A stretch of DNA of 64,000 nt, taken from positions 62,001 to 126,000 of the forward strand of contig NZ_AUAX01000009.1 in the NCBI RefSeq assembly GCF_000428945.1, read 5' to 3'. The position numbers and the translations under genes were made by a program. The stretch comes from Hamadaea tsunoensis DSM 44101 (GTDB taxonomy: Bacteria; Actinomycetota; Actinomycetes; Mycobacteriales; Micromonosporaceae). Positions 12,011-53,699 of the stretch are shown here, one piece after another. The number at the start of each line of letters is the position of its first letter. Within the stretch, counting starts at the first letter, position 1. The notes under the pieces were generated by a model, which made no database searches, had not been told where the DNA came from, and saw nothing but the letters and a program-made list of their open reading frames with translations.

Positions 12011-12092
12011 CCAAGATCCTGTTTGGATCAGGGAAATCACCCGAATCTTGGCTCATGATTCGGGTGGCAACCGTGATCCAAACGGGATCTTG
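12011..12092 (+). repeat. Dispersed ~83-bp nested palindrome, copy 1
   Basis: The outer arms pair CCAAGATCCTGTTTGGATCA with TGATCCAAACGGGATCTTG. The inner arms pair CACCCGAATC with GATTCGGGTG. Between outer and inner arms the left spacer is GGGAAAT-like, which allows orientation to be read. It lies between the convergent stops of nucS (11984) and the gene ending at 12105. Two more copies are at 15067 (inverted) and 53617. Confidence 0.95.
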
Positions 12093-12104
12093 AAGTAGCG
12101 GCGA

Positions 12105-12584
12105 TCAGTAGGGGGCGCCGCAGATCTTCCACTCGCCGGACTCCTTGACCAGCATGAACGTGTGGGACTCCGTGCCGTCGGCGGCCGTGGTGAGCTCGGC
12201 GTCGACCGTCGCCGTGGTCCGCCCGTTGCTGGTCAGCACGTGTGCGCCGGTGATCCTGTGCGACTGGATGCCCTGGTCGGAGGCGAGGACCTCGAACGCG
12301 TTGAGCGGGAACATGGTCTTCGTGACACTGCACAGCAGGGTGTAGGCGGCGGTCGTGTTGCCGGACTCCAGGTCGTCGGCGAACTCGTTCACCACGTTCG
12401 TCACGGGGGCGACGGCGTCCTTGACGGTGGTGAACAGCTTGATGCCGCCGAAGATCCCCCCGGCGCAGCAGAGCACGGCGACGATCCCGACGACGATCAG
12501 GACGGTACGCAGCGTGTGCGACTTCTTGGCCGGTGCGGGCGGCGCGTACTGCGGCTGCGGATAGGGCCCCGTGGGTTGACTCAT
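12105..12584 (-). CDS. Membrane-anchored protein with extracellular NTF2/DUF4878-like domain
   Basis: A 159-residue protein. A proline-rich cytosolic tail (MSQPTGPYPQPQYAPPAPA) is followed by one hydrophobic helix (about residues 26-48). The outside part contains LESGNTTAAYTLLCSVTK and ends SGEWKICGAPY. The pattern of a short tail, single helix and small domain in which 'the residue pool is consumed' (DxxxAYxLLC) resembles DUF4878 or NTF2-like lipoproteins and anchored proteins common in actinobacteria. Cys86 and Cys156 could form a disulfide. The function is unknown. The dispersed palindrome lies just downstream. Confidence 0.75.
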   Translation of the reverse strand: MSQPTGPYPQPQYAPPAPAKKSHTLRTVLIVVGIVAVLCCAGGIFGGIKLFTTVKDAVAPVTNVVNEFADDLESGNTTAAYTLLCSVTKTMFPLNAFEVLASDQGIQSHRITGAHVLTSNGRTTATVDAELTTAADGTESHTFMLVKESGEWKICGAPY

Positions 12585-12612
12585 GTCCGCACCGTAAGGC
12601 TTGTCCGCAAGG

Positions 12613-13818
12613 TCAGCCGAGGGAGGCCAGACGGCCCCGGAGGTAGCGCTGTTCCGCCTGGTTGCGGGTCAGGTCGATCGCCCGCCGGTACGCCTCGGCC
12701 GCCTCCGCCATCCGTCCGGCCCGGCGGAGCAGGTCGGCGCGGGCGGCTTCGCGCAGCGGGACGTCCGCCGTGGACAGCTCGTCGAGCAGGGCGAGGCCGG
12801 CTTCCGGGCCGATTGCCATGCCGACGGCGATGGCGCGGTTGAGGCGTACGGTCGGGGAGGGTACGAGGACCATGAGGTCGTCGTAGAGGCCCGCGATCTG
12901 CGGCCAGTCCGTCGCCGACGCGATCGGTGCGGTCGCGTGGCAGGCCGCGATCAGGGCCTGCAAGCGGTACGGGCCCAGCGGTCCGGCGAGGGCGGCCCGG
13001 CGCAGCAGCGCGAGGCCGTCTTCGATCATCGGCCGGTTCCAGCGGGTCCGGTCCTGCTCCTCCAACGGGATCAGGCCGCCGGCCGCGTCGACCCGGGTCG
13101 CGGCTCGGGCCTGGTGCAGCAGGAGAAGGGCGTACAGGCCCTGGGCCTCGGGGTCGCCGGGCAACAGTTCCGCCACTGCGGCGGCGAGGCGTACGGCAGC
13201 CGCGCACAGGTCCGTGCGCAGCAGGTCAGGGCCGCTCGTGGCCGCGTACCCCTCGTTGAAAAGGAGATAGACCACCCCCAGGACCGCGGCGGTCCGCGCG
13301 GGCAGCAGGTCCGCGGGCGGCACGCGGTAGGGGATGCGCGCGGTCACGATCTTCTTGCGCGTACGCACGAGCCGCTTGGCCATGCTCGCCTCGCTGACCG
13401 CGAACGCGCGGGCGATCTCGGCGACCGACAACCCGCACAGGGTACGCAGCGCCAGCGTGACCTGTGCCTCGAAGCCGAGGGCGGGGTGGCAGCAGGTGAA
13501 GATGAGCCGCAGCCGGTCGTCGGCGATCGGGCCGGGAGGGTCCGACGCGGTCTGGACGGCGAGGAGGCGGAGCTTGTCCGCGCCGACCTTGGCGCGGCGC
13601 AGGCGGTCGACGGCGTGGTTGCGGGCGGCGGTGGTGAGCCACGCCCGCGGCCGTTCCGGTACGCCGTCGCGGCGCCACGCGGGCAGCGCTCGGGCGAACG
13701 CCTCCTGAGCGGACTCCTCGGCGAGGTCCCAGTCGCCCGTGCCGCCGATGAGCGTGGCGACGATGCGGCCCCAGTCGTCGCGGAACGCCTGCTCCAAGGC
13801 CTCCTCGGGGGTCGTCAT
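12613..13818 (-). CDS. ECF sigma factor with C-terminal TPR-like extension (ECF42 type)
   Basis: An RNA polymerase sigma factor of 401 residues, about twice the length of a simple ECF sigma. Region 2 has DWDLAEESAQEAFARAL and PRAWLTTAARNHAVDRLRR. Region 4 contains LCGLSVAEIARAFAVSEASM with a helix-turn-helix. The remaining ~210 residues are helical, with TPR-like RAIAVGMAIG and AEAYRRAIDLT. In the ECF42 group this extension takes the place of an anti-sigma factor and the partner gene encodes a DGPF protein. Exactly that partner lies upstream with a four-base ATGA overlap (13815-13818). The inducing signal is unknown. Confidence 0.92.
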   Translation of the reverse strand: MTTPEEALEQAFRDDWGRIVATLIGGTGDWDLAEESAQEAFARALPAWRRDGVPERPRAWLTTAARNHAVDRLRRAKVGADKLRLLAVQTASDPPGPIADDRLRLIFTCCHPALGFEAQVTLALRTLCGLSVAEIARAFAVSEASMAKRLVRTRKKIVTARIPYRVPPADLLPARTAAVLGVVYLLFNEGYAATSGPDLLRTDLCAAAVRLAAAVAELLPGDPEAQGLYALLLLHQARAATRVDAAGGLIPLEEQDRTRWNRPMIEDGLALLRRAALAGPLGPYRLQALIAACHATAPIASATDWPQIAGLYDDLMVLVPSPTVRLNRAIAVGMAIGPEAGLALLDELSTADVPLREAARADLLRRAGRMAEAAEAYRRAIDLTRNQAEQRYLRGRLASLG

Positions 13819-14186
13819 GCGGCGCGGGTTCCGCCGGTGCCGTCGCGCAGCGGGCGGATCTCGACCTGGCCGATCCGGGTCGCCGGGTGCCCGGCGGCGA
13901 TCGCGATCGCCTCGTCGAGGTCGGCCACCTCCACGATCGCCAGGCCGCCGACCTGTTCGCGGCCCTCGATGAACGGACCGTCGGTGAGCAGGACCTCGCC
14001 GTCGCGGACGCGTACGGTGGTGGCTGTGGGGCTGGGCCGCAGGCCCTCGTGCACGCGCAGGACACCCCGCCGGCGAAGGTCCTCGATCCAGTCCGTGAAG
14101 TCGGCGAAGGCGCCTTCGGCGATGGCGTCGGCCGCCACCTGCTCGTCGGCACTGATCATCAAGAGATAGCGCACGGGTGTCCTCAT
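13815..14186 (-). CDS. DGPF (YCII-related) protein, partner of the ECF42 sigma factor
   Basis: A 123-residue small ferredoxin-fold protein. It starts RYLLMISADEQ and carries the hallmark TDGPFIEGREQVGG, where DGPF gives the family its name. Such proteins are genetically linked to ECF42 sigma factors, but their biochemical role is not settled; YCII-like folds can bind or turn over small molecules. ATG 14186 is chosen because it directly precedes the first beta strand, whereas the upstream extension to 14234 looks non-coding. It is translationally coupled to the sigma gene and divergent from the hydrolase at 14256. Confidence 0.88.
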   Translation of the reverse strand: MRTPVRYLLMISADEQVAADAIAEGAFADFTDWIEDLRRRGVLRVHEGLRPSPTATTVRVRDGEVLLTDGPFIEGREQVGGLAIVEVADLDEAIAIAAGHPATRIGQVEIRPLRDGTGGTRAA

Positions 14187-14255
14187 CTCGCCGGGTCGTT
14201 CGTCCATGGTGTGCCCCGAGGGGCGGACAAGCATTCCAGATTGTCAGGAGACCTG

Positions 14256-15044
14256 ATGAGCACGATCCAGAAAGTGATCTCCCGCGACGGTACGCCCATC
14301 GCGTACGCATCGGTGGGAACGGGGACACCGGTGATTTTCGTGGTGGGGGCGCTCAACGACCGGCACAAGTGCGTACCGGTGGCGGAATCGCTGGCCGACG
14401 GGTTCACCGCCGTCACCTACGACCGCCGGGCCCGGGGCGCCAGCGGCGACACCCGCCCGTACGCGGTCCAGCGCGAGGTCGAGGACCTGACCGCCGTGAT
14501 CGAGGCAGTCGGCGGACCGGCGGCGGTGTTCGGCTTCTCGTCGGGCGCGAACCTCGTCCTGCACGCCGCCGCGGCCGGGGCGCCGATCAGCGAGGTCGTG
14601 CTGTTCGAGCCGCCGTTCACGTTCGGCGTACCGGCGCCGGACCCGGACGACCTGCCGGAGCGGCTGCAGGCGCTGCTCGATGCCGGCAAGCCGGACGAGG
14701 TCGTGACCACGTTCCAGATCGACGGCATCGGCATGCCGGCCGAGGTCGTCGAGCAGATGCGCCACGCACCGTTCTTCGCGGGGCTGGCGGCCATGACGCA
14801 GAGCGTGGTCTACGACGCGGTCGTCGCCCGGGAACTCCGCCTGCCCACTCCGGAGATGCTGGCCGTGAAGGTGCCGGTTCTGATCCTCAACGGTGCCGAG
14901 ACCTGGCCCCGGCTGCGGGACTGGGCGACGGAACTGGCGAACCGGCTGCCGGGCGCCACCCGCGAGGAGGTCTCGGGCGGCGAGAACCACGGCATCCCCA
15001 CCGAATCGACCGCCGAGGCGATCCGCGCGTTCCTGAAGCGCTGA
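14256..15044 (+). CDS. Alpha/beta-fold hydrolase
   Basis: A 262-residue cytosolic hydrolase of unknown substrate. The nucleophile elbow GFSSG places Ser95 as nucleophile. The oxyanion region follows IFVVGALNDR, where the usual HG motif is replaced by GAL. The acid is likely in the VLILNGAETW block and the histidine in GGENHGIPTE. A clear AGGAG lies six bases before the ATG. It is divergent from the DGPF/ECF42 pair across about 70 bases, so it is a plausible target of that sigma factor. This could be tested by looking for a shared promoter motif. Confidence 0.88.
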   Translation: MSTIQKVISRDGTPIAYASVGTGTPVIFVVGALNDRHKCVPVAESLADGFTAVTYDRRARGASGDTRPYAVQREVEDLTAVIEAVGGPAAVFGFSSGANLVLHAAAAGAPISEVVLFEPPFTFGVPAPDPDDLPERLQALLDAGKPDEVVTTFQIDGIGMPAEVVEQMRHAPFFAGLAAMTQSVVYDAVVARELRLPTPEMLAVKVPVLILNGAETWPRLRDWATELANRLPGATREEVSGGENHGIPTESTAEAIRAFLKR

Positions 15045-15066
15045 CCGCCCCGTCCCCGTTGCAGCG

Positions 15067-15149
15067 CCAAGATCCTGTTTGGATCAGCTTTTCCACCCGA
15101 ATCATGGACCAAGATTCGGGTGATTTCCCTGATCCAAGCGGGATCTTGG
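15067..15149 (-). repeat. Dispersed ~83-bp nested palindrome, copy 2 (inverted)
   Basis: Same architecture as the copies at 12011 and 53617, but the asymmetric spacer (ATTTCCC) is on the right, so this copy lies in the opposite orientation. It sits between the convergent stops at 15044 and 15185. A partial extra GGGATCTTGGG follows at 15162-15173. Confidence 0.95.
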
Positions 15150-15184
15150 GGCGGATCCGGTGGGATCTTGGGGGTGGGGTCTGG

Positions 15185-16717
15185 TCAGCGCCCGTGCATG
15201 ATGCGGACGATCTTGTGGCCGAGGGCGACGCTCTTCTCGGTACGCCGGAACGTCAGCAGCGGCACCACCGACGGCAGCCGGCGCCGGGCGATGGACGACG
15301 CGCGACCGAACTCCCGCAGCCCGTCCGCGCCGTGGATACGCCCGAAGCCGGACTGGCCGACCCCGCCGAACGGCAGCTCGGGCAGGACGGCGAAGGAGAA
15401 CGTGGAGTTCACCGCGACCATTCCGGCGCGCAGCCGGCGCGCGATCTTCAGTCCGTTGTGCTTGGAGAACACCGCCCCGCCGAGCCCGTAGGGCACCGCG
15501 TTGGCCTTGGCGACCGCCTCGTCCATGGAGGCCACCTTGGCGACCGTCATCGTCGGGCCGAAGGTCTCCTCGCACACCGCGGCGGAGTCCTCGGGCACGT
15601 CGACCAGGATGGTCGGCCGGACGACCGGGCCGCGTACGGAGTCGGGGCCGCCGAGGACCGCCGTGCCGCCGCGGGCCAGGGCGTCGTCGATGTGCCGCCG
15701 GATGATCTCGCGCTGGCCGGGCATGGTGATCGGGCCGACGTCCTCGCCCGGATCGGTGCCGTAGGTGAGCTTCTCGGCGTCGCCGACGAGCGCCTTGAGG
15801 AACGGCTCGTAGACCTTCTCGTGCACGTAGACGCGCTCGATGCCGACGCACGACTGGCCGGCGTTGGTCATCGCGCCCCAGAGGGCGGCGTCCGCGGCCG
15901 CCTTCACGTCCGCGTCCGCGTCGACGATCAGGGCGTCCTTGCCGCCGCATTCGACCAGCACGGGCACCAGGTTCTCGGCGCAGGCGGCCATGACCTTCTT
16001 GCCGGTCGCGGTCGAGCCGGTGAAGGCGACCTTGTCCACGCCCGAGCGGCACAGGGCGGCGCCCACGTCGCCGAGACCGTGCACGATCTGCAGCACCGGC
16101 TGCTCCGGCACGACCTCGCGGAACAGGTCGACGTACCACTGGCCGACGGCCGGGGTGTACTCGCTGGGCTTGAAGACCACCGCGTTGCCGGCCGCCAGCG
16201 CGTACGCGATGGAACCCATGGGCGTGAACAGCGGGTAGTTCCAGGGGCCGATGACGCCGACCACGCCGTAGGGCCGGTACTCCAGGCGGCCCGCGAACTC
16301 GGGCTGCAGCAGCGAACCGCCGACGCGGCGGGGACCGAGCACCTTGCGCGCGTGCCGGGCGGCCCAGGCGATGTGCTCGATGGTCACGAACGTCTCGAGC
16401 GTGGAGTCGATGCGCGGCTTGCCGCCCTCGGCCGTCATGAGCGCGGCGAGTTCCGGGATGCGCCGGGTCAGCAGGGCGCGGAAGCGCAGCAGGCGGCGCT
16501 TGCGCTCGGGAAAGCCGAGCGACTCCCACCAGGCGCCCGCCTCGCGCGCGGTCCGGACGGCCGCGGCCACGTCCTCGGCGCTCGCCACCGGGAAGGCGCC
16601 GACCTCCTCGCCCGTGGCGGGGTTCGTCGAGATGAGGCGGCCGTCGGCGACCCGGCTCGCGCCAGGCACGGGGAGGTCCGCACGGTCGGTCTGCAGCGGG
16701 TCGCTGGTAGTGGTCAC
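15185..16717 (-). CDS. NAD(P)-dependent aldehyde dehydrogenase
   Basis: A cytosolic aldehyde dehydrogenase of 510 residues. The active-site set is complete: Asn160 in GPWNYP, Lys183 in FKPSEYT, general base Glu256 in LVECGGKD and nucleophile Cys290 in NAGQSCVG. The cofactor motif FTGSTATGK lies at 232-240. The closing block PFGGVGQSGFGR is typical. It resembles succinate-semialdehyde or broad long-chain aldehyde dehydrogenases; the substrate cannot be read from sequence. It starts with GTG. The 3' end faces the inverted copy of the dispersed palindrome. The SDR gene follows its start region on the same strand. Confidence 0.93.
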   Translation of the reverse strand: MTTTSDPLQTDRADLPVPGASRVADGRLISTNPATGEEVGAFPVASAEDVAAAVRTAREAGAWWESLGFPERKRRLLRFRALLTRRIPELAALMTAEGGKPRIDSTLETFVTIEHIAWAARHARKVLGPRRVGGSLLQPEFAGRLEYRPYGVVGVIGPWNYPLFTPMGSIAYALAAGNAVVFKPSEYTPAVGQWYVDLFREVVPEQPVLQIVHGLGDVGAALCRSGVDKVAFTGSTATGKKVMAACAENLVPVLVECGGKDALIVDADADVKAAADAALWGAMTNAGQSCVGIERVYVHEKVYEPFLKALVGDAEKLTYGTDPGEDVGPITMPGQREIIRRHIDDALARGGTAVLGGPDSVRGPVVRPTILVDVPEDSAAVCEETFGPTMTVAKVASMDEAVAKANAVPYGLGGAVFSKHNGLKIARRLRAGMVAVNSTFSFAVLPELPFGGVGQSGFGRIHGADGLREFGRASSIARRRLPSVVPLLTFRRTEKSVALGHKIVRIMHGR

Positions 16718-16779
16718 GGCGCGAAGTCTAATGCGCGTTCAGGCGAACGCGAAAGATCCTCACTGGTAACCAAGGCCGC

Positions 16780-17454
16780 CTAAACGGCCAGATATTCATC
16801 GAAGATTTCCTTTGCCACGTGCGCGGGCGGCCGCAGCTCACCCTCGGCGTGACGGCGGATGAAGCGGTCCCGCTCCGCGAAGTCGGCGCCGCGGATGATC
16901 TCCTGCATCCCGGTGTCGAGCACCCCCGGGTTGACCACCGAGACCGTCACCCCCGGATCGTGGGCCCACTCCGCGGCCACGTGGGCGAAGAACTCCTCCG
17001 CGCCGCGCTTCGTCGCCGAGTACACCGACCAGCCGTCGATCACGTGATGCGCCGCGCCCGTGGACACGAAAACGATCTTCAGCGGTACGCCGTCCGGCCG
17101 CGCCGCCAGCACCGCGCCGGTCAGCAGCACGGCGGAGGTGAGGTTGACGGCGACCGCCCGCTCGACGGCCGCGGGGTCCAGGCGTACGGCGGGGCCGATC
17201 GGTTCGACGACGGCGGCGTTGAGCACCAGCGCGGCCTCCCGGGCTCCGGCGAGGAACCCGGCCAGTGCGGCCCGGCCCGGCAGGCTGCCGAGCTCGGCGA
17301 GGTCGCAGGCGTACGGGGTGAGCCGGGGGTCGGCCTCCTGCTCGGCCGTGAAGCCGCGGGCCAGGGCCAGCACCCGGGCACCGGGCTCGCCGAGCACCTG
17401 GTCGGCGAGGGCGGCGCCGAGGCCGCGGGACGTACCGGTGATCACCACATGCAT
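16780..17454 (-). CDS. Short-chain dehydrogenase/reductase
   Basis: A 224-residue NAD(P)-dependent oxidoreductase of the classical SDR fold. The cofactor motif TGTSRGLG lies at residues 7-14, NAAV stands in for NNAG, the catalytic Ser is in FVSTGAAH, and YSATK provides Tyr and Lys. The PGVLDTGM block is typical. ATG 17454 is taken over 17463 because it lies seven bases after a TACGAT -10 element. The substrate is unknown; some relatives act as sepiapterin-reductase-like enzymes. It is divergent from the hydrolase at 17519. Confidence 0.88.
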   Translation of the reverse strand: MHVVITGTSRGLGAALADQVLGEPGARVLALARGFTAEQEADPRLTPYACDLAELGSLPGRAALAGFLAGAREAALVLNAAVVEPIGPAVRLDPAAVERAVAVNLTSAVLLTGAVLAARPDGVPLKIVFVSTGAAHHVIDGWSVYSATKRGAEEFFAHVAAEWAHDPGVTVSVVNPGVLDTGMQEIIRGADFAERDRFIRRHAEGELRPPAHVAKEIFDEYLAV

Positions 17455-17461
17455 TCGTCCC

Positions 17462-17467
17462 ATCGTA
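17462..17467 (-). promoter_or_regulatory. -10 element of a leaderless promoter (SDR gene)
   Basis: TACGAT on the minus strand, seven bases before the ATG at 17454. The alternative ATG at 17463 would overlap it, which supports the shorter start. Confidence 0.45.
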
Positions 17468-17518
17468 GTGACGGCACACCTGGCGTACGCCGTCGGAGCT
17501 GTGCAAGCATGCCGGGCC

Positions 17519-18397
17519 ATGGCGTACGCGAAGCAGACGGTGGCGGTCGGCGGCGGCGAACTGGCCGTCGGGGTGTGGGGCGAGACGGGACCGCTGGTGG
17601 TGGCGGTGCACGGGATCACGTCCAACCATCTCGCCTGGACCCTGGTCGGCGAGGATCTCGGCCGCGACCACCGGTTCGTGGCGGTCGACCTGCGCGGCCG
17701 CGGCGACAGCCGGGATCTCCCCGGGCCCTACGGCATGGCGCGGCACGCCGAGGACGTGGCCGCCGTCATCGAGGCGTTCGGCGGCGGCCCGATCGTCCTG
17801 GCCGGCCAGTCGATGGGCGGCTGGGTCACGGTCGAGACCGCGCACCGCCGGCCCGACCTCGTCGAGCGGCTCGTCCTGGTGGACGGGGGCGCGCCGCTGC
17901 CGCTGCCGGACGGCGTACCGGCGCGGGCGTCCGAGGCGGATCTGCGCTCGGCGGTCGAGCAGACGGTCGGCACGGCCTTCGCCCGGCTGACGATGACCTT
18001 CCCGGACGTCGAGTCGGCCGTCTCGCTGTGGCGCGGCCATCCGGCGCTGACGGAATGGACTCCGCTGCTGCAGGCGTACGCCGAATATGACGTGACACCG
18101 GCCGGCGACGGCGTGGCGACGAAGGCGGTCCTGGCCGCGGCGGTACGCGACGCGCAGGAGCTGTACGCGCTGGCCGGCACCGAACCGCGGGCCCTGCCGG
18201 TGCCGGGGGTGTTCCTGCGGGCCGAGTTCGGCATGCTCGGCGGCCTCCCGGCGATGTACGCGCCCGGCGACGCGACGCACTGGCTGCCCGGCGTCGCGGA
18301 GTCGACGATCGACGATGTCAATCACTACACGGTGCTGATGGGGGAGCGGGGCGCGAAAGCCGTCATAGCCGCGATTCGCGGCGCGGCGGCTGCCTGA
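17519..18397 (+). CDS. Alpha/beta-fold hydrolase
   Basis: A 292-residue hydrolase of the epoxide-hydrolase/haloperoxidase-like shape. The oxyanion block is VAVHGITSNHLAW and the strand VAVDLRGRGDS follows. The nucleophile elbow GQSMGG places Ser98. The histidine is in DDVNHYTVLM near the C-terminus. The segment between about 120 and 210 is a helical cap. The substrate is unknown. It lies 65 bases from the start of the divergent SDR gene. Confidence 0.88.
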   Translation: MAYAKQTVAVGGGELAVGVWGETGPLVVAVHGITSNHLAWTLVGEDLGRDHRFVAVDLRGRGDSRDLPGPYGMARHAEDVAAVIEAFGGGPIVLAGQSMGGWVTVETAHRRPDLVERLVLVDGGAPLPLPDGVPARASEADLRSAVEQTVGTAFARLTMTFPDVESAVSLWRGHPALTEWTPLLQAYAEYDVTPAGDGVATKAVLAAAVRDAQELYALAGTEPRALPVPGVFLRAEFGMLGGLPAMYAPGDATHWLPGVAESTIDDVNHYTVLMGERGAKAVIAAIRGAAAA

Positions 18398-18472
18398 TCG
18401 GGCCGGTCGGCCTGACCAATCGGTCAAATCCCATACGCGACACCGGCACAGGTGGCGTCCTCCGAGGAACGG

Positions 18473-18482
18473 TCACTAAGGT
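18473..18482 (+). promoter_or_regulatory. Possible promoter -10 region, shared with 26726
   Basis: TCACTAAGGT, containing the -10-like hexamer TAAGGT, about 50 bases before the secreted dehydrogenase gene. The identical ten bases occur at 26726-26735, upstream of another secreted protein. Confidence 0.35.
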
Positions 18483-18532
18483 AACCCCCTCGGGGACGCC
18501 GTCGCTGCGACGGGCCCCGTGGGGAGGAAGTC

Positions 18533-45414: not shown

Positions 45415-45462
45415 TGCACTGCCGGACGTCGCGGGCCGAGTGCGGTGCGGTTGCGGCCGTGG

Positions 45463-46326
45463 TTATGCGTTGAACTCCTTGAGGGCTGCTCGCCGGGTTT
45501 CCAAGGGGGTGCGGGACTTGGCCGAGATCATGACCGCGACGTCGGTCGGGGACAGCTTGCCGAGGAAGTCGCGTACCGTCTGGTCGTCCAGGGGGGTGTC
45601 GTCCCAGTAGGTGTGGCAGAGGGCGTCGTCGGAGGCGAAGGACGTGGCCCGGGCGCCGAGGACCTCGTCGACGAAGACGCCGTAGAGGGTCCATTCGGAG
45701 AAGTGCAGCTGGGAGCCTACGACCGTGGGCCAGGGGCTGCCGGTCGTCTTCTCGATGCGGGCGAACATCTCGGTCAGGATCGCCGGGTCCCAGGCCAGGA
45801 TCGACGAGACGTAGTCGTGGTAGGGCGGCGGCGCGGCCGGCAGGCCGAGCATCTCGCGGGCGGCCTTGTGCCACAGCACATGCCGGGGCAGCCGGTCGTC
45901 GATCTCGTTCGGCTTGCGGTAGAAGCGGGCGACGCCGTCGCGGACGAAGGTGTCAGGGCCGAAGGGACGGCAGAAGCTGATGTCCGAGTCGACCAGGAGC
46001 AGCGTGTCCGCGTCGACGGCTCCGCTGGCCAGCTTCACGATCTGCTGGATGATCCAGCCCCGCAGCGGCGGGAACGGCCGGCGCAGGTTCAGCGAGTACT
46101 TCGTGCCGGGCAGGTGGCGTACCGAGCGGGGCAGGAAGTCCGTCTCGTCGAGCACGTGCGTACGCGGTCCGCTCAGCGATCCGAACAGTTCCAGGTCGCG
46201 GCGCGGCACGATGAGGTGATGGTGCACGTCCGGCGGCGCGTACGCGAGCACGGAGGCGTTCAGGTCCCGGCTGAGCTCGAAGTCCCCGGCGAAACTCGGG
46301 GTGACGACGGCGAGGCGGTCGGCCAT
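45463..46326 (-). CDS. DUF6492-family glycosyltransferase-like protein
   Basis: A 287-residue cytosolic protein. It starts RLAVVTPSFAGDFELSRDLN and continues HHLIVPRRDLELFG, the pattern I recall for DUF6492 proteins, which are GT-A-like. LLLVDSDISFCRPF supplies a DxD-type metal site. The late QLHFSEWTLYGVFVDEV matches the family. It is the last gene of a four-gene minus-strand run (48999 to 45463) of glycosyltransferases. ATG 46326 is chosen over 46395. The donor sugar is unknown. Confidence 0.82.
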   Translation of the reverse strand: MADRLAVVTPSFAGDFELSRDLNASVLAYAPPDVHHHLIVPRRDLELFGSLSGPRTHVLDETDFLPRSVRHLPGTKYSLNLRRPFPPLRGWIIQQIVKLASGAVDADTLLLVDSDISFCRPFGPDTFVRDGVARFYRKPNEIDDRLPRHVLWHKAAREMLGLPAAPPPYHDYVSSILAWDPAILTEMFARIEKTTGSPWPTVVGSQLHFSEWTLYGVFVDEVLGARATSFASDDALCHTYWDDTPLDDQTVRDFLGKLSPTDVAVMISAKSRTPLETRRAALKEFNA

Positions 46327-46331
46327 GGTGT

Positions 46332-47213
46332 TCAGTGTGACCCTTCGGCGGTCCCGGAACCGGTCCCGGAACGGGTGGAGTCGTCGCGTTCCCACGACGC
46401 GTTGCGGTCGGCCCGGTACGCCAGCCGGGCGGTGACGACGAGGCCGGCGTACGTGGCCGCGTCCATGGCGCCCCGGGGTCCCTGGCGGACCAGTTTGAGC
46501 ACGTCGCGGGCTGCCCCGCCGGACGTCTCCCGAGCGGTGGCGGCATTGGTCCGGTGGTGTTCGGCCTTGCCCCGATAGGTGCGGCGCAACACCTTGAGCA
46601 GATCGCGTACCCGCCGCGGCAGCGCGACCGTCACCGGCGGGCAGTCGACGATCTCGATCTCACCGGTGCCGAACAGCTGATCCACGAAGAGGTCGTCGGC
46701 GACCTGGTCGGGGAACTCGTCGAACCGGGCGCGACCCGCAGCCGACAGTGCGTACACGCCCGCGCCCCAGAGGGAGTTGAGGACGGCGGGCATCTGCGAG
46801 CGCGCCCGGGAATAGCGGCGGACCAGCGCGACCGACTTCGCCGAGTCGTAGACCAGCGGCGGGCGGCCGGCCAGCGGTCGCTGCTCGCCTGGGATCTCCG
46901 GCGTCAGACGGTCGGCCACGGTCAGCGCCGACTGCAACGGCAGCACCACGTCCGCGTCCAGGTAGATCCGCGGGAGCGCGCGTACCGCCTTGTCGCCCGC
47001 GCGCAGCGCGAGCACTTTCGAGCCTTCCGCCAGCTCCAGCACGCGTACGCCCGCGAAGCGCCGGGCGATCTCGGCGGTGTTGTCGGTGCAGCCGTTGGCG
47101 ACGACCACGACCTCCAGGCGGCCGTCGAGGACGGCGGGGTGCAGTTCGGTGAGGCAGGCGGCGATGACCGCCGACTCGTTGTGGGCCGGGATGACGACCG
47201 AGGCGAGGGTCAC
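46332..47213 (-). CDS. Family 2 glycosyltransferase
   Basis: A 293-residue GT-A enzyme. It begins LASVVIPAHNESAVIAACL and has VVVANGCTDNTAEIARRF; the metal site is YLDADVVLP. A basic C-terminal half (RRVRDLLKVLRRTYRGKAEH) could sit at the membrane. It starts at the GTG whose first bases overlap the previous stop (GTGA), so it is coupled to the gene at 47210. The sugar specificity is unknown. Confidence 0.9.
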   Translation of the reverse strand: MTLASVVIPAHNESAVIAACLTELHPAVLDGRLEVVVVANGCTDNTAEIARRFAGVRVLELAEGSKVLALRAGDKAVRALPRIYLDADVVLPLQSALTVADRLTPEIPGEQRPLAGRPPLVYDSAKSVALVRRYSRARSQMPAVLNSLWGAGVYALSAAGRARFDEFPDQVADDLFVDQLFGTGEIEIVDCPPVTVALPRRVRDLLKVLRRTYRGKAEHHRTNAATARETSGGAARDVLKLVRQGPRGAMDAATYAGLVVTARLAYRADRNASWERDDSTRSGTGSGTAEGSH

Positions 47214-48178
47214 CGCAGTCCCTTCTGCTGGGGCCGGTCGCCGCCGGGCAGCGCCGCCCAGCGCTTGCGCGACAGCAGTACGCGCAGCGCGTACCGGTTG
47301 GCGGGCCGGTGGATGCGGAGAGCTTCGTTGAGCGCGACGACGGCGCGGAAGACGGAGGTGGCGAACCGGCCGTGGTACTTCGCGAAGTACCGCACGCGGT
47401 TGACCGTGTTGAGCGCGACCAGGCCGTGGCTCGCGCCGGACGCGCCGCCCTCGTGGGTGACCACGGCGTCGGGCACGTAACGGATCGCCCAGCCGGCCTG
47501 GCGCAGGCGGCGCGCGTAGTCGGTCTCCTCGCTGTAGAGGAAGAACCGCTCGTCGTCCCAGGCGCCGATCTGCTCGTCGGCGGCCCAGGCGATCGCCAGC
47601 ACCGCGCCGGTCGCCCAGTCGACGTCGCCCGGCCGCTCGTACGGCGCCCGGGACCAGATCATCTCCGAGAGCCCGGCCGGCCGGTCCGGCCACTTCTTGC
47701 CCAGCAGCGCGTCGCCGAGCGCCCGGCCGATCGACGGCTCGCGGCGCAGCGACGGGTAGGGCTCGCCGTTCTCGTCGTCGAACCGCGGCACCGCCGCCCC
47801 GACACCGTCCTCGTGCAGGGCCGCCAGCAGCTTGCGTACGCTGCCCGGGGCCAGCTCCAGGTCCGGGTTGAGGATCAGCACCGCGCCGGTCTCGCCGAGC
47901 AGTTCGCGCCCGGCGTTGATCCCGCCGGAGTAGCCCAGGTTCTGCCCGGTCGGGTGGAACACCACGTCCGGGTACTTCGCCATCACCGCAGGCAGGTCGT
48001 CGCGCGAGCCGTTGTCGACGACGATCACGCGTACGCGCAGGCCGTCGGCGGCCGCCGGCAGGGTGTCCAGCAGACCGGCGATCCGGTCGGCGCTGTTGTA
48101 CGTCACCGTGATCACGGTGCAGTCGACCGCGACCGTCGCCGACGGTTCGAACCCGGCCGTACGCATCGGGTTGGTCAC
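47210..48178 (-). CDS. Family 2 glycosyltransferase (rhamnosyltransferase-like)
   Basis: A 322-residue GT-A enzyme. CTVITVTYNSADRIAGLL and VVDNGSRDD are typical, followed by the LNPDLEL block characteristic of WbbL/GtfA-like rhamnosyl or related transferases. The acceptor region contains DVDWATGAVLAIA and FFLYSEETDYARRLRQAGW. The GTG at 48178 overlaps the stop of the WecG-like gene by four bases. Rhamnosyl transfer is a resemblance, not proof. Confidence 0.9.
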   Translation of the reverse strand: MTNPMRTAGFEPSATVAVDCTVITVTYNSADRIAGLLDTLPAAADGLRVRVIVVDNGSRDDLPAVMAKYPDVVFHPTGQNLGYSGGINAGRELLGETGAVLILNPDLELAPGSVRKLLAALHEDGVGAAVPRFDDENGEPYPSLRREPSIGRALGDALLGKKWPDRPAGLSEMIWSRAPYERPGDVDWATGAVLAIAWAADEQIGAWDDERFFLYSEETDYARRLRQAGWAIRYVPDAVVTHEGGASGASHGLVALNTVNRVRYFAKYHGRFATSVFRAVVALNEALRIHRPANRYALRVLLSRKRWAALPGGDRPQQKGLR

Positions 48179-48999
48179 TTGTCCTCCGTGGTCGCCGGGG
48201 ACTCGGTGGCCAGCCGGGAGTTCTTGCGGAGCCGGTACAGCGCGGGCGGGCCCTGCACGATATAGCGGCGGGCGAGCCGGCGGGGCTCCCGGGCCAGCCG
48301 GTACGCGCCCTCGACACCCGCCTTGCGGACCCAGGCCGGAGCACGCTGGACGGTGCCGGCGATGAAGTCCGTCGCCGCCCCGAAGGCGAGCAGTACGCGA
48401 GCCCCGCTGGCCTGCGCGTACTCGGCGATCCACCGTTCCTGGCGGGGTTTGCCGAGCCCCACGACGAGCAGCTCGGTACGCGTACCCGCCACGGTCGCGG
48501 CCAGCTCGGCGGCGCCCTTCGGGTCGGTCAGCTGGGCCCGGGGCGGCGCCCACGTGCCCGAGATCTTGAGCGCGGGCAGCTGCTCGGAGAGCGCGGCGAG
48601 GAGCAGCTCGTGGCCGGTCGGCGTACCGCCGAGGAAGCCGACCGTGGCGCCGGCCGACTCGGCCACGCCCAGCAGGAGCGGCAGCAGGTCGGACCCGGCG
48701 AGCAGCGGCCAGTCCCGGCCGGTCAGGAGGGCCGCGCGGCGTACGAGCGGGACGCCGTCGAGCAGGACGAGCCAGTCGGGGCTCGCGGGGCCGGCGGCCT
48801 CGAAGTCGACGCGGCCCTGGCCGGCGCTGCCGAAGTGGTGGATGTGATCGACGTTGGCAGAGGCGATGGCCAGCGGCCGGGCGGGCTGAGCCGGGGCGGT
48901 CAGGCGGTCGCGGACCGCGCCGACGACCCCGTCCAGCTCGAGCAGATGCACGACGGTGCCGCCCAGGAGAATCCGGGCGGCCGGCAGGTTATCGGTCAT
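48175..48999 (-). CDS. WecG/TagA/CpsF-family glycosyltransferase
   Basis: A 274-residue enzyme of the family that adds a ManNAc(A)-type second sugar to a lipid-linked GlcNAc. The conserved block VVGLGKPRQERWIAEY is present. ASANVDHIHHF corresponds to the usual NxxH region, and LLDGVPLV and GFLGGTPTG to the substrate pocket. The tail is basic (REPRRLARRYIVQGP). It likely makes the second step of repeat-unit assembly, after the initiating phosphoglycosyltransferase, which is not in this window. ATG 48999 is used; an earlier start at 49044 is open. Confidence 0.88.
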   Translation of the reverse strand: MTDNLPAARILLGGTVVHLLELDGVVGAVRDRLTAPAQPARPLAIASANVDHIHHFGSAGQGRVDFEAAGPASPDWLVLLDGVPLVRRAALLTGRDWPLLAGSDLLPLLLGVAESAGATVGFLGGTPTGHELLLAALSEQLPALKISGTWAPPRAQLTDPKGAAELAATVAGTRTELLVVGLGKPRQERWIAEYAQASGARVLLAFGAATDFIAGTVQRAPAWVRKAGVEGAYRLAREPRRLARRYIVQGPPALYRLRKNSRLATESPATTEDK

Positions 49000-49263
49000 G
49001 CGCTCAATCCGTATTCCGACAGTGAGAATTCGACAGTGATCCATGAATAAGGGCGGTTTCCGCCAGTGCCCAGCTAACCTGGTCCGGATGCCGGACTAGT
49101 ACGGCCGAACGGCCGATGACCTGGCATCCTTTGGCGACGTAGGGAGGCGGAAAGGTTCGACCTTGGAGAAAAAGCACAGCTCAGGCTCGGTATGTGAGGG
49201 GTATTTACGGTGCGGTCTGCCAGATATCCGTCAGTGGCATACCGGCTGACCAGGGCGTCCGGC

Positions 49264-49269
49264 TAGCCT
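49264..49269 (+). promoter_or_regulatory. -10 element of a leaderless promoter (sugar-nucleotide operon)
   Basis: TAGCCT, six bases before the GTG at 49276. The 49000-49275 gap is an AT-richer divergent control region. It holds a direct repeat CGACAGTGA (near 49018 and 49031) but no other clear element. Confidence 0.55.
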
Positions 49270-49275
49270 GCCCGG

Positions 49276-50343
49276 GTGTCGTTGACCTCTGACGAGCCCA
49301 TTGGCGTGGCTGTCGTCGGGGCCGGTTACTGGGGCCCCAATCTCGTTCGCAATTTCCAATCCAGCCCGGACTTCCGGCTTGCCTGGCTGTGCGACCTCGA
49401 TGTCGCGCGAGCCAAGAAGGTACTCGGCGGCTACTCGACCGTCCAGCCGACGGACGACCTGGCCCTCGTGCTCGCCGACGAGAACGTGGCGGCCGTGGCG
49501 ATCGCCACACCGGCCGGCACGCACCTCGACGTGGCGATGCAGGCGCTGGCCGCCGGCAAGCACGTCCTCGTCGAGAAGCCGCTCGCGGCCACGTACGCCG
49601 AGGGTGTGGAACTGGTGGCCGAGGCGGAGCGCCGCGGCCTGATCCTCATGTGCGACCACACGTTCTGCTACACGCCGGTCGTGACCCGGATCCGTGAGCT
49701 GGTGCACTCGGGCGAGATCGGCGATCTGCAGTTCCTCGACTCGGTCCGCATCAACCTCGGCCTCGTCCAGCGCGACATCGACGTGCTCTGGGACCTCGCC
49801 CCGCACGACCTGTCGATCCTGGACTTCATCCTGCCCGCCGGCGTGGAGGTCGTTTCGGTCAGCGCGCACGGCACCGACCCGATCGGCGCCGGCCGGGCCT
49901 GCATCGGCTACCTGACGCTCCAGCTGTCGACCGGTGCCATCGCGCACGTCCACGTGAACTGGCTCTCACCGATCAAGGTGCGTACCACGATCATCGGCGG
50001 CTCGAAGCGGACCCTGGTCTGGGACGACCTCAGCCCGACCACCCGCCTCGCGATCTACGACCGGGGCGTCGACGTCGCGGCACCCGAGGAACTCGGGGAC
50101 GAAGCCAGGCGAAACCTGCTCGTGTCGTATCGATCGGGGGACATGGTGGCCCCGGCGCTCCTCGAACGCGAGGCGCTGAGCACTATGGTGGCCCAGTACG
50201 CGGCCGCGATCCGCACCGGAACGCCGCCGCTCACCGACGGGCGCGCGGGGCTGCGCGTACTGCGGATCCTGGAAGCGGCCTCGGCCAGCCTGCGGGCCGG
50301 CGGCGTCGCCGTGCGTCTGGACACCGATGGAGGAATCTCGTGA
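49276..50343 (+). CDS. Gfo/Idh/MocA sugar oxidoreductase (WlbA/WbpB-like)
   Basis: A 355-residue NAD-dependent sugar dehydrogenase. The Rossmann motif is VVGAGYWGPNLVRN and the family block VLVEKPLAA carries the catalytic Lys. AIATPAGTHLD is also typical. Given the DegT aminotransferases downstream and a WlbB/WbpD-like acetyltransferase at 56149, it probably oxidises C3 of a UDP-GlcNAc-derived uronic acid (WlbA/WbpB step). Alternative Gfo/Idh roles cannot be excluded. The start is GTG with a leaderless promoter. It opens a four-gene plus-strand operon with overlapping genes. Confidence 0.85.
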   Translation: MSLTSDEPIGVAVVGAGYWGPNLVRNFQSSPDFRLAWLCDLDVARAKKVLGGYSTVQPTDDLALVLADENVAAVAIATPAGTHLDVAMQALAAGKHVLVEKPLAATYAEGVELVAEAERRGLILMCDHTFCYTPVVTRIRELVHSGEIGDLQFLDSVRINLGLVQRDIDVLWDLAPHDLSILDFILPAGVEVVSVSAHGTDPIGAGRACIGYLTLQLSTGAIAHVHVNWLSPIKVRTTIIGGSKRTLVWDDLSPTTRLAIYDRGVDVAAPEELGDEARRNLLVSYRSGDMVAPALLEREALSTMVAQYAAAIRTGTPPLTDGRAGLRVLRILEAASASLRAGGVAVRLDTDGGIS

Positions 50344-51350
50344 GTGCAGCGGTTGCCGTGAGCGGATCGCGGGCGCTGGTCACCGGCGGCGCCGGAACGA
50401 TCGGCTCGCACGTCGTCGACCTGCTCGTGCAGGGGGGCGCGACCGAGGTGATCGTGCTCGACAACCTGGTACGCGGGCGCCTGGCGAACCTGCGCGAGTC
50501 GCTCCCGTCCGGGGTCGTCCGGGTGGTCGAGGGTGACATCCGCGACGCCGCCCTGGTACGTGACCTGACCGAGGGCATGGATCTCGTCTTCCACCTGGCG
50601 GCGCTGCGGATCACGCAGTGCGCCCAGGAGCCGCGGCTGGCCAACGAGGTGCTGGTCGACGGCACCTTCAACGTGATCGAGGCGGCCGCCGACGCCGGCG
50701 TACGCAAGGTGATCGCGTCCAGCTCGGCGAGCGTCTACGGCCTGGCGGAGCAGTTCCCGACCACCGAGCGCCACCACCCGTACAACAACGACACCTTCTA
50801 CGGCGCGGCCAAGGCGTTCAACGAGGGGATGCTGCGCAGCTTCAAGGCCATGAAGGGCCTGGACTACGTGGCGCTGCGCTACTTCAACGTCTACGGCCCC
50901 CGGATGGACGTCTTCGGCCTCTACACCGAGGTGCTCATCCGCTGGATGGAGCGCATCGAGAGCGGGCAGCCGCCGCTGATCCTCGGCGACGGGCTGGCGA
51001 CCATGGACTTCGTGCACGTCGCCGACATCGCGCGGGCCAACATCCTGGCCGCCGAGGCGGACGTCACCGACGACGTGTTCAACATCGCGTCGGGTACCGA
51101 GACGAGCCTGCGGGAACTGGCCGCCGCGCTCAGCGCGGTCATGAAGTCCGACCTGGAGCCGGAGTTCGGTCCGGCCCGCTCGGTCAACGGCGTCACCCGC
51201 CGGCTCGCCGAGATCGAGAACACCGCGAGCCGCATCGGTTTCCGCAACGAGATCACCATGGAGGAGGGCCTGCGCGGCCTCGTCGAGTGGTGGCGCGCGG
51301 AGCGCATCGCGGGCGACGACCCCGGCGCGGCGAAGGCGGTCTCTCAGTGA
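50340..51350 (+). CDS. NAD-dependent sugar epimerase/dehydratase (extended SDR)
   Basis: A 336-residue sugar-nucleotide enzyme of the GalE-like extended SDR class. The cofactor motif is VTGGAGTIGSHVV, and the catalytic residues sit in SSSASVYG and YGAAKAFNE (Y-x3-K). LRYFNVYGPRMD and GDGLATMDFVHVAD are typical. Whether it is a 4-epimerase or a dehydratase cannot be told from this. GTG 50340 overlaps the previous stop (GTGA) and its own stop overlaps the next start, so the three are coupled. Confidence 0.9.
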   Translation: MSAAVAVSGSRALVTGGAGTIGSHVVDLLVQGGATEVIVLDNLVRGRLANLRESLPSGVVRVVEGDIRDAALVRDLTEGMDLVFHLAALRITQCAQEPRLANEVLVDGTFNVIEAAADAGVRKVIASSSASVYGLAEQFPTTERHHPYNNDTFYGAAKAFNEGMLRSFKAMKGLDYVALRYFNVYGPRMDVFGLYTEVLIRWMERIESGQPPLILGDGLATMDFVHVADIARANILAAEADVTDDVFNIASGTETSLRELAAALSAVMKSDLEPEFGPARSVNGVTRRLAEIENTASRIGFRNEITMEEGLRGLVEWWRAERIAGDDPGAAKAVSQ

Positions 51351-52477
51351 GCAACGCGAAGATCCCTGTCATGCTGCCGTGCCTGGGCGAGGAAGAGGCC
51401 CAGGCCGCCGCAGAAGCCGTACGCTCCGGCTGGGTCGCCCAAGGCCCCCGGGTCACCGCGTTCGAGAAGGCGTTCGCCGAGCGTGTCGGCGCCGCCGAGG
51501 GCATCGCGGTCAGCAACTGCACGACCGGCCTGCACCTGGCGCTCGTCGCGATCGGCGTCGGCCCCGGCGACGAGGTCATCGTCCCGTCGCTGTCGTTCAT
51601 CGCCACCGCCAACGCGGCCCGCTACGTCGGCGCCACCCCGGTCTTCGCGGACGTCGACCTGGCCACGGGCAACCTGACCGAGGCCACGATCGACGCGGTG
51701 CGTACCGAGCGGACGAAGGCGATCATCGCAGTCCACCAGGGCGGCAACCCGTTCGACACCCGCGCGCTGCGGGCCGCCGCCACCCGCTGGGGCGTCGCGC
51801 TCGTCGAGGACGCGGCCTGCGCCGCCGGCTCGACCGCGTACGGGCGGCCGGTGGGGGAGGGCGCGCTCATCGCCGCCTGGTCGTTCCACCCGCGCAAGGT
51901 CATCACGACCGGCGAGGGCGGCATGATCACCACCGACGACGCCGAGTGGGCGGTCCGCCTGCGCCGCCTGCGCGAGCACGGCATGAACGTCTCCGCCGCC
52001 GAGCGGCACGCCGCCACCCAGCCGGTGCTGGAGGCGTACCTGGAGACCGGTTACAACTACCGGATGACGGACATCCAGGCGGCCGTCGGCCTCGTGCAGC
52101 TCGACCGGCTGGACGGCCTCGTCGCCCAGCGCCGCGAGCTCGCCGCCCGCTACGACGAGCTGCTCAAGGGCATCGAGGGTGTCACGCCCGTCACCGTTCC
52201 CGGGTACGCCGAGAGCAACTACCAGTCGTACTGGATCCTGTTCGGCGCGGAGTTCGCCACCGACCGGGACGACGTCCTGCGGATCCTGGCCGACGCCGGG
52301 ATCTCGGCCCGCCGGGGCATCATGGCGGCCCACCTCGAGCCCGCGTACGCGGGTGTCGAAGCCGATCTGCCGAACACCGAGCGGCTCACCCGGCACTCGC
52401 TGATCCTCCCGCTGCACCACCTGCTGACCGCCGAGGACCAGGACCGGATCGTCGGCGTCCTGCGTACCCTGGCCTAG
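51347..52477 (+). CDS. DegT/DnrJ/EryC1-type PLP sugar aminotransferase
   Basis: A 376-residue PLP enzyme that aminates a keto-sugar nucleotide. The Schiff-base Lys184 lies in SFHPRKVITTGEGG and Asp155 in LVEDAACAAG. The SNCTTGLHLAL block binds the cofactor phosphate and MTDIQAAVGLVQL closes the fold. It resembles perosamine/4-amino-type aminotransferases (PseC/VioA/GDP-perosamine group). It could make the amine that the formyltransferase at 42549 acts on. The start is GTG overlapping the epimerase stop by four bases. Confidence 0.92.
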   Translation: MSNAKIPVMLPCLGEEEAQAAAEAVRSGWVAQGPRVTAFEKAFAERVGAAEGIAVSNCTTGLHLALVAIGVGPGDEVIVPSLSFIATANAARYVGATPVFADVDLATGNLTEATIDAVRTERTKAIIAVHQGGNPFDTRALRAAATRWGVALVEDAACAAGSTAYGRPVGEGALIAAWSFHPRKVITTGEGGMITTDDAEWAVRLRRLREHGMNVSAAERHAATQPVLEAYLETGYNYRMTDIQAAVGLVQLDRLDGLVAQRRELAARYDELLKGIEGVTPVTVPGYAESNYQSYWILFGAEFATDRDDVLRILADAGISARRGIMAAHLEPAYAGVEADLPNTERLTRHSLILPLHHLLTAEDQDRIVGVLRTLA

Positions 52478-52491
52478 AGGAGACCGCTTTC

Positions 52492-53598
52492 ATGGGCAAC
52501 ATCCCGCTCGTCGACCTGGCCGCGGCGCACGCCGAGGTGGCCGCCGAGGTCGAGACCGGCTTCAAGCGCATCATCGCCGACACGGCGTTCATCGGCGGCG
52601 CCGAGGTGACCGCGTTCGAGCAGGAGTACGCCGCCTTCTCGGGCGTCGGGCACTGCGTTGGCGTCGCCAACGGCACCGACGCGATCGAGCTGGCCCTGCG
52701 CGCGATGGACATCGGCCCCGGCGACGAGGTCGTCACCGCGGCCAACACGTTCGTCGCGACCGTCGAGGCGATCGCGCGGACGGGTGCGCGTACGGTCCTG
52801 GTCGACTGCGACCCGGCGACCTACCTGATCGACACCGACGCCGCGCTCGCGGCGATCACCCCGGCCACCAAGGCGATCGCCCCGGTGCACCTCTACGGCC
52901 AGCTCGCGCCGGTCGAGAAGCTTCGGGCCGGCACCGCGCTGCCGATCATGGAGGACGCGGCGCAGTGCCAGGGCGCCACCCGCTTCGGCAAGGGCGCGGG
53001 CTCCGGCGGTATCGCGTCCACCAGCTTCTACCCGGGCAAGAACCTCGGCGCGTACGGTGACGCGGGCGCCGTGGTCACCGACGACGAGGACCTCGCCCGG
53101 CTGGTGCGCACCATCGGCAGCCACGGCGGCCTGGCCAAGTACCGGCACGACGTCATCGGCTTCAACAGCCGGCTCGACGGGCTGCAGGCGGTCGTGCTCC
53201 GCGCCAAGCTGGCCCGCCTCGCCCACTGGAACGACCTGCGCCGCGCGGCCGCCGCCCGCTACGACGAGCTGCTCGCCGGCCTGGACGTGGTCACCCCGGT
53301 CACCCTCGACGGCAACGAGCACGTCTGGCACCTCTACGTGGTACGCGTACCCGGCGACGGCACGCCGGCCCGCCGTGACGCGGTGCTCGCCGAGCTGAAC
53401 GCGGCCGGGATCGGAGCGGGCATCCACTACCCGTACCCGGTGCACCTGACGCCGGCGTTCTCGGGTCTCGGCTACGGGCCCGGTGCGTTCCCGGTGGCGG
53501 AGAAGACCGCGACGGAGATCCTGTCGCTGCCGCTGTTCCCGCAGATCACGCCCGAGCAGCAGCAACGCGTCGTCTCGGTGCTGACCACCGCCCTGTAA
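52492..53598 (+). CDS. Second DegT/DnrJ-type sugar aminotransferase (WlbC/WbpE-like)
   Basis: A 368-residue PLP aminotransferase. It starts NIPLVDLAAAHAEV, as 3-aminotransferases of the WbpE/WlbC/QdtB type do. Lys183 is in SFYPGKNLGAYGDAG and Asp155 in PIMEDAAQCQGA; GIHYPYPVHLTPAF closes the sequence. It would form the 3-amino sugar that the acetyltransferase at 56149 acetylates. The ATG has AGAGGAGA upstream and lies 14 bases after the first aminotransferase. It is followed by copy 3 of the dispersed palindrome. Confidence 0.92.
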   Translation: MGNIPLVDLAAAHAEVAAEVETGFKRIIADTAFIGGAEVTAFEQEYAAFSGVGHCVGVANGTDAIELALRAMDIGPGDEVVTAANTFVATVEAIARTGARTVLVDCDPATYLIDTDAALAAITPATKAIAPVHLYGQLAPVEKLRAGTALPIMEDAAQCQGATRFGKGAGSGGIASTSFYPGKNLGAYGDAGAVVTDDEDLARLVRTIGSHGGLAKYRHDVIGFNSRLDGLQAVVLRAKLARLAHWNDLRRAAAARYDELLAGLDVVTPVTLDGNEHVWHLYVVRVPGDGTPARRDAVLAELNAAGIGAGIHYPYPVHLTPAFSGLGYGPGAFPVAEKTATEILSLPLFPQITPEQQQRVVSVLTTAL

Positions 53599-53616
53599 CG
53601 CCGCTTCACGGCACCC

Positions 53617-53699
53617 CCAAGATCCCGTTTGGATCAGGGAAATCACCCGAATCATGGACCAAGATTCGGGTGGAAAACCTGATCCAAGCGGGATCTTGG
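53617..53699 (+). repeat. Dispersed ~83-bp nested palindrome, copy 3
   Basis: Outer arms CCAAGATCCCGTTTGGATCA / TGATCCAAGCGGGATCTTGG and inner arms CACCCGAATC / GATTCGGGTG, in the same orientation as the copy at 12011. It lies between the convergent stops at 53598 and 53730, 18 bases from the aminotransferase stop. Confidence 0.95.

Follow-up and report, generated by a model that had tools for sequence, protein, structure and literature searches.

The window analyzed here is a stretch of 64,000 nucleotides (G000:C9:62001-126000; 71% GC) and contains three copies of an 83-bp nested palindrome that we call element A. The genome, which is actinomycete-like (9.48 Mb in 68 contigs), contains about 250 copies of A or more, and in the part of it that we sampled, nearly all copies are at the 3' ends of genes. 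We propose, with a probability of about 0.6, that A is a dispersed repeat resembling the repetitive extragenic palindromes (REPs), that it serves as a bidirectional 3'-end or terminator hairpin without a U-tract, and that it has replaced older terminators.

Copy number and placement of element A

We searched for the arms of A while allowing up to 2 mismatches and used the reversed pattern as a control. There were 260 + 249 matches in A's own genome and none for the control, so the possibility that there are few copies genome-wide, which the preliminary description had named as refuting its observation, is excluded. In a comparison set of 354 genomes from the family, 37 contained any arm match, and A's own genome was the only one with more than two. 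The three other members of the genus (G001, G002, and G003) had none. Within the family genomes compared, A is confined to one species. No exact arm match was found in viral contigs, and a scan of a wider contig collection gave, among the matches listed, two single arm matches in unrelated bacteria; records of A's own genome may not be in that listing, and it is no evidence that A is missing elsewhere.

To describe the placement of A, we used a sample of 1.936 Mb, or 20% of the genome (C1, C3:1-400000, C4:1-400000, C9, and C2:200001-400000), with gene positions from a purpose-written codon-usage caller instead of the annotation. A was present at 78 places, 71 of them full-length. Two of the full copies were inside a predicted gene or at an edge and were dropped. 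The other 69 lie between genes: 37 are between convergent genes (~13 expected), 31 are between tandem genes, and 1 is between divergent genes. (The background junctions in the sample are 313 convergent, 1033 tandem, and 311 divergent.) The convergent excess is significant relative to the share of junctions (binomial p = 1.2e-10) or the share of base pairs in gaps (p = 9e-10), and the depletion from divergent gaps is significant relative to their base pairs (p = 1e-9). The convergent placement that the preliminary description had judged unlikely by chance is thus a feature of the genome sample, and a lack of convergent bias is excluded. When placement is counted per gene 3' end, convergent sites exceed tandem ones less strongly (p = 0.006), and A therefore mainly follows the rule "at a 3' end" and not "convergent" as such. 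Among the 31 tandem copies, 27 are nearer to the upstream stop codon, with medians of 27 nt to the stop and 98 nt to the next start. No junction in the sample contains two copies of A.

The density of A is uneven, as 200 kb of contig C2 lacks a full copy. C2 (565 kb) had one exact arm among the matches listed, compared to 21 for the similar-sized C1. C2 is thus nearly free of A, perhaps because it is a replicon of its own or a region of recent origin. Also, some copies of A are split at the center of the palindrome by repeats of ~0.4-0.6 kb that are not A (C1:202050-202683, C2:207487-207957, and C1:263913-264459). These repeats have look-alike ends (GCTCTCC..TGTGTGGG). Another element may use the loop of A as its landing site.

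Hairpins at gene ends

As RNA, either strand of A gives one long hairpin, and the copies in the window have folding energies of -49.7 to -61.9 kcal/mol (z = -7.3 to -11.0). A hairpin with z < -3 is present at 37 of 38 convergent junctions that retain A. Once A is cut out, only 2 of 28 have one (remnants of 36-160 nt were kept, which retains 28 of the 38 junctions), versus 44 of the 89 convergent junctions without A or B (Fisher p = 3.8e-5), where element B is another nested palindrome that is described below. If only remnants of up to 90 nt are considered, then the comparison is 1/22 with A cut out versus 35/64 without either element (p = 2.8e-5). Hairpins are also infrequent at junctions with B cut out (1/12), and the frequencies with either element removed are close to that of divergent gaps (10/153). 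A smaller run was concordant (29/51 without either element, 0/15 with A cut out, 2/11 with B cut out, and 8/94 for divergent gaps), and in that run, 18 of 24 convergent junctions from G003 had a hairpin. At most of the convergent junctions that A occupies, there is no second hairpin.

The longest run of T within 12 nt of A is 0-1 on 126 of 142 sides, 2 on 15 sides, and 3 on 1 side. A has a strong hairpin soon after the stop codon, as I-shaped terminators do, and it does not have the U-tract of intrinsic terminators. Because there is no U-tract, A would be a U-less (I-shaped) terminator, or else a hairpin that fixes and protects an end left by Rho. Of the candidate identities in the preliminary description, a bidirectional terminator is supported by the location of A at 3' ends, by its near-absence between divergent genes, and by its being the only strong hairpin at most of the convergent junctions that it occupies. 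A REP-like element is supported as well, by the high copy number, the intergenic location, the presence in one species, and the homologs in sister species. These two readings are compatible.

We also considered that A might have inserted into the tip of an older hairpin. This is unsupported, as the cut-out junctions show no hairpin. The flanks of A do not pair better than swapped flanks: swaps were as good in 27/200 cases for convergent junctions, 81/200 for tandem, and 63/200 for all. For B, they were as good in 12/200 cases for tandem and 192/200 for convergent junctions.

Is A a selfish element?

A purely selfish element, similar to REPs or to miniature inverted-repeat transposable elements (MITEs), would insert widely and survive where it is least harmful, just past stop codons, without any function for the host. 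This would account for the high copy number in just one species, for the near-absence from divergent gaps, and for the several other families of intergenic repeats in the same genome, and published REPs have a similar preference among gaps, going by parts of PMC3733652. However, plain insertion would keep the older terminator alongside A, whereas removing A leaves 26 of the 28 convergent junctions without any hairpin at z < -3. Plain insertion should also put A into a gap with B or with a second A at times, and none of these were seen: A and B never share a junction, and in convergent gaps of at least 90 nt, we found 0 shared gaps versus 5.41 expected (Fisher p = 0.00095). Finally, there is no sign of target-site duplication at A (mean match of 1.23 nt versus 1.10 in swapped flanks, with 56 of 300 swaps as high). 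Overall, we consider a purely selfish element to be unlikely.

Other hallmarks of known mobile palindromes are missing too. The Y1 transposase of the IS200 or REP-associated tyrosine transposase (RAYT) type (PF01797) was found in 0 of the 4 genomes of the genus, while 5 of 14 control genomes were positive. On a given side, no more than 2 of the 71 copies carry an unpaired GTAG or CGTC tag within 12 nt, whichever strand is read. No parent transposon with the ends of A turned up, although no systematic search was made. Without a target-site duplication or a parent element, there is no support for A as a strict MITE. It is placed as REPs are, in many copies that are intergenic, lie in convergent or unidirectional gaps, and are rarely divergent (37, 31, and 1 of 69), but because the tag, the Y1 transposase, and the size (83 bp, compared to 20-40 bp for REPs) do not fit, we did not file A as a REP.

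Base composition around element A

On the transcript strand, the stretch from the stop codon to A is 53-54% C and 26% G. With ends closer than 12 nt left out, the C-G skew is 0.36-0.38, versus 0.04-0.06 at ends without an element (p = 1.6e-20), and B is similar. At twelve orthologous ends in sister species, the skew is absent (0.37 in A's own genome versus 0.03; p = 0.01). C-richness is typical of the Rho utilization (rut) sites, and the C-richness on the near side would suit the loading of Rho on both strands. An example of the skew is in the window at 11985-12010 and 12094-12104, where the flanks are C-rich before A and G-rich after it on either strand.

The skew bears on another explanation, which is that the hairpin only stabilizes the 3' end of the mRNA, or stops its processing, and that Rho terminates transcription further on. 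This predicts the same placement and the same hairpin without a U-tract, and the C-rich, G-poor stretch before A resembles rut sites. On the other hand, tandem copies show a mirror image of the skew on their far side, and the palindromes of the sister species lack the skew (0.07 versus 0.00; p = 0.17). The mirror symmetry may belong instead to the element or to its spread. We think it improbable that A is a stabilizer only.

Palindromes in sister species

The sister genomes G001, G002, and G003 contain two palindrome families, A2 and A'. A2, with GGATCAGGGTTCTnnGTCGAATCTT arms, had 195 + 190, 199 + 194, and 109 + 112 arm matches, respectively, versus 2 + 5 in A's own genome, so each sister carries about 110-200 copies of this homolog of A. 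A', with AGATCACGGTTACGCATG arms, had 54 + 52, 74 + 73, and 104 + 108 matches, and 0 in A's own genome. A2 and A align with hardly any gap in the same 55-bp frame. They share GGATCAGGG, GAATCTTG..CAAGATTC, and CCCTGATCC, and they differ in stem segments, namely at nine bases between the shared blocks and in the outside stem, where the differing positions are mostly still paired. The preliminary description had considered whether the arms are conserved in related strains: the arm sequence is not kept, but the frame and most of the pairing are. We fetched 30 loci and parsed 24 places with A or A2, of which 19 are from sisters, judging by the outer arms. These 19 places include 11 convergent, 2 tandem, and 0 divergent, while 6 lack a gene on one side.

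We compared 126 orthologous 3' ends. The nucS orthologs in G001-G003 served to locate sister regions. Orthology was based on C9 and scattered loci because synteny between C1 and G003 is patchy. A is present in its own genome at 5 of the 21 ends (three junctions) where a sister has a palindrome of the A2 or A' kind, and at 7 of the 105 ends (five junctions) where the sister has none; the two ends of one junction are not independent. Thus, some orthologous junctions have different hairpins. At two of the five junctions with A and no palindrome in the sister, the sister has a classic hairpin, in one case followed by TTTT. In the nucS region of G002 (L124), there are several CAAGATCGTCGGCTTCCGACGATCA-type repeats in one gap, which represent a further family of GATC-containing palindromes in the genus.

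The two halves of element A

In the window copies, outer arms of ~20-22 bp and ten-base inner arms, with unpaired spacers, surround a nine-base center. Copies 1, 2, and 3 have 19, 19, and 21 of the outer 22 positions paired. Across 74 distinct copies from the genome, pairing holds in 93.8% of outer-stem cells and 76.5% of inner-stem cells, and 6 of the 22 outer pairs have changes on both sides. The preliminary description had both arm pairs as conserved, and the inner arms are perfect in all three window copies, but genome-wide, inner pairing is lost at the two central pairs in 32 of the 74 distinct copies.

Of the 75 full copies, 70 could be parsed into two halves. One spelling, GGGAAATCACCCGA, makes up 61 of these 140 halves, yet it occurs on both sides in just 1 of the 70 copies, versus 13.3 expected if halves were paired at random (one of the 5 unparsed copies also has it on both sides). 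For the other half, a small set of modules gives many different spellings, among them an ACGT-type inner arm, which disrupts inner pairing in the 32 copies mentioned above. The entropy is 0.16 bits for the constant half and 0.73 bits for the variable half, which is partly by construction, as the constant side was oriented by its own motif. For nine of the 75 copies, no orientation could be assigned. Among copies in tandem gaps, the constant half leads in 11 and trails in 6, and another 3 were left undecided (2 of them tandem, and 1 counted apart as "--"), so there is no clear bias. The spacer asymmetry reported earlier amounts to a near-constant half versus a diversified half. The simplest account of these sequences is that A would descend from an asymmetric master whose variable half diversified.

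A near-constant half beside a diverse one is not something that a hairpin alone requires, and it might suggest that A is a site for a nucleoid protein, a gyrase-like enzyme, or another DNA-binding protein that tolerates only 3' ends. A binding-site role had been proposed for the bacterial interspersed mosaic elements (BIMEs) of E. coli. This seems very improbable for A, as sister species have other sequence in the same frame, and junctions with A have no other hairpin. The nucleoid- or topology-related site among the candidates of the preliminary description gains no independent support.

How element A might work

If A is a bidirectional terminator, then a polymerase leaving a gene would transcribe a two-part hairpin (a 22-bp outer stem and a ~10-bp inner stem) tens of bases past the stop codon, and because A is palindromic, it would serve transcripts arriving from either side. 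Copies of A would have multiplied in their own species and displaced earlier terminators, and the sister species would have done likewise with one homologous and one unrelated palindrome. We infer that A terminates transcription rather than only stabilizing transcripts, that it spread by copying, and in what order events took place at each junction.

Several points weigh against this proposal. At 16 of the 21 ends where a sister has a palindrome, A's own genome has neither A nor B, and three of the five junctions with A and no sister palindrome lack a clear hairpin in the sister (one has a weak fold, and two were judged by eye). The mutual exclusion of A and B is weak in tandem gaps (0 versus 1.75 expected; p = 0.15), and without the length condition, simple arithmetic gives an expectation of only ~2.5 convergent and 0.7 tandem shared gaps. 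In tandem gaps, the C-rich near side of A faces a far side that is equally G-rich, and coding transcripts by themselves do not account for this. Lastly, covariation in the arms, a check proposed in the preliminary description, gave a mixed outcome. The covariation score within A beats every one of 500 shuffles, whereas pairs with double changes are no more numerous than in shuffles (318/500 as high), nor are pair types (405/500). For A and A2 together (38 sequences), double changes occur in 11 of 29 pairs (99 cells), and the score is 0.191, versus 0.107 when shuffled (0/500 as high) and no more than 0.061 when slid. Here too, the pair count (391/500) and the pair types (499/500) are not above shuffles, so the contrast comes mostly from a single block that differs between the two groups and not from many separate events.

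More speculatively, the genus might rely on terminator cassettes that can replace one another. These would belong to at least four palindrome families (A, B, and the sisters' A2 and A') and could enter gene ends, displace the resident terminator or cassette, and remain one per junction, spread by a non-RAYT system that reads the constant half. We offer this extension tentatively and think it somewhat doubtful.

Terminators are usually seen as evolving individually, each at the gene that it serves. In the genome studied here, hundreds of gene ends share one sequence, and in sister species, a different sequence takes its place at some of the same junctions. The new aspects are this swap and the apparent replacement of terminators. 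If termination is confirmed, then terminator turnover by mobile repeats would be directly testable, A would provide a natural set of bidirectional terminators for GC-rich hosts, and the families would point to a mechanism of palindrome spread that has yet to be described.

Elements and genes in the window

The preliminary description had reported three 83-bp copies of A, starting at 12011, 15067, and 53617, and these were confirmed (Table 1). The second copy is inverted, as can be read from its GGGAAAT spacer. The copies had been said to lie 18-27 bases from a plus-strand stop, and with our gene calls, the distances are 26, 22, and 18 nt; the distances from A to the end of the minus-strand gene are 11, 35, and 30 nt. 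The window contains 6 arm matches, versus 0.02 expected from shuffles. At gathering thresholds, no Rfam family was found in the window. A phage search with 10283-16783 gave four unannotated records that cover 2-19% of the query at 66-74% identity, and none spans most of the query.

Table 1. Copies of elements A and B in the window, and the genes that flank A.
Feature	Position	Strand	Description
Element A, copy 1	12011..12093	+	83 bp, with the constant half first; between nucS and a convergent gene
Element A, copy 2	15067..15149	-	Inverted, constant half on the minus strand; between alpha/beta hydrolase gene and convergent aldehyde dehydrogenase gene
Element A, copy 3	53617..53699	+	Constant half first; after DegT/DnrJ/EryC1-type aminotransferase gene and before a convergent gene
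nucS, upstream of copy 1	11361..11984	+	NucS_N and NucS_C domains
Convergent gene past copy 1	12105..12584	-	No Pfam family
Alpha/beta hydrolase gene preceding copy 2	14256..15044	+	Pfam was run on the longer frame 13887-15044
Aldehyde dehydrogenase gene, convergent, past copy 2	15185..16717	-	Ends 35 nt past copy 2
DegT/DnrJ/EryC1 aminotransferase gene preceding copy 3	52492..53598	+	Ends 18 nt before copy 3
Convergent gene past copy 3	53730..54752	-	Sub-threshold match to PD40 only
Element B	57527..57598	+	Nested palindrome unrelated to A, ~73 bp, arms CGACGATCTTGCGCGAATGTC; placed like A

Element B had 205 + 205 arm matches in the genome. The sample contains 48 full copies, of which 21 are convergent, 22 are tandem, 3 are divergent, and 2 were dropped. 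B has few matches elsewhere in the family, with paired ones in another of its genera, g17. For example, in genome G120, B-like arms are paired ~69 bp apart at C1:110728-110796 and at C98:16203-16270. This suggests that B is older or was transferred. The window's copy of B lies in a 916-bp convergent gap (57455-58370) that is full of repeats, including CGCGACTGTCC-, GTAAACGATCATGC-, and GGTGAGATCGACGAACCCGGGACA-type repeats, each of which has many copies in the sampled genome.

Comparison to known systems

We did not find a description of these palindrome families in the open-licence literature, which is weak evidence of absence. REPs and BIMEs with their RAYTs, as covered in parts of PMC3733652 and PMC12306157, are like A in being species-specific, high-copy, intergenic palindromes that lie mostly in convergent or unidirectional gaps; for REPs, the placement mainly between unidirectional and convergent genes is from PMC3733652. 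A differs from them in its length of 83 bp, its nested structure, the lack of the GTAG or CGTC tag, the lack of the Y1 transposase from four genomes of the genus, and the evidence for terminator replacement. The Ype and Efa elements are stem-loop repeats that, like A, are longer than REPs and prefer sites near the 3' ends of genes (PMC1590033). They differ from A in sequence and host, and the portion of PMC1590033 that we rely on describes no swap between sister species for them.

The Term-seq data from Streptomyces include a structured class of ends without a U-tract, which were likened to I-shaped terminators or to Rho-dependent ends (PMC8269248, in part). These I-shaped or bidirectional ends of GC-rich actinobacteria resemble A in having a strong, GC-rich hairpin near the stop codon and no U-tract. 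However, they have an unrelated sequence for each gene, whereas A is one sequence that recurs at hundreds of ends, and termination by A is predicted from its structure and location.

Uptake signal sequences (USS) and DNA uptake sequences (DUS) are found in Pasteurellaceae and Neisseria. According to sections of PMC1852404, pairs of these species-specific repeats act as terminator hairpins and are enriched between tail-to-tail genes, as A is, and USS work in this way as inverted pairs. USS are ~9-11 nt, have at least 1,000 copies, and are short motifs that also occur as unpaired singles, whereas A is an 83-bp unit that is full-length at 71 of its 78 places in the sample. Terminators made from USS pairs are the nearest functional parallel of A.

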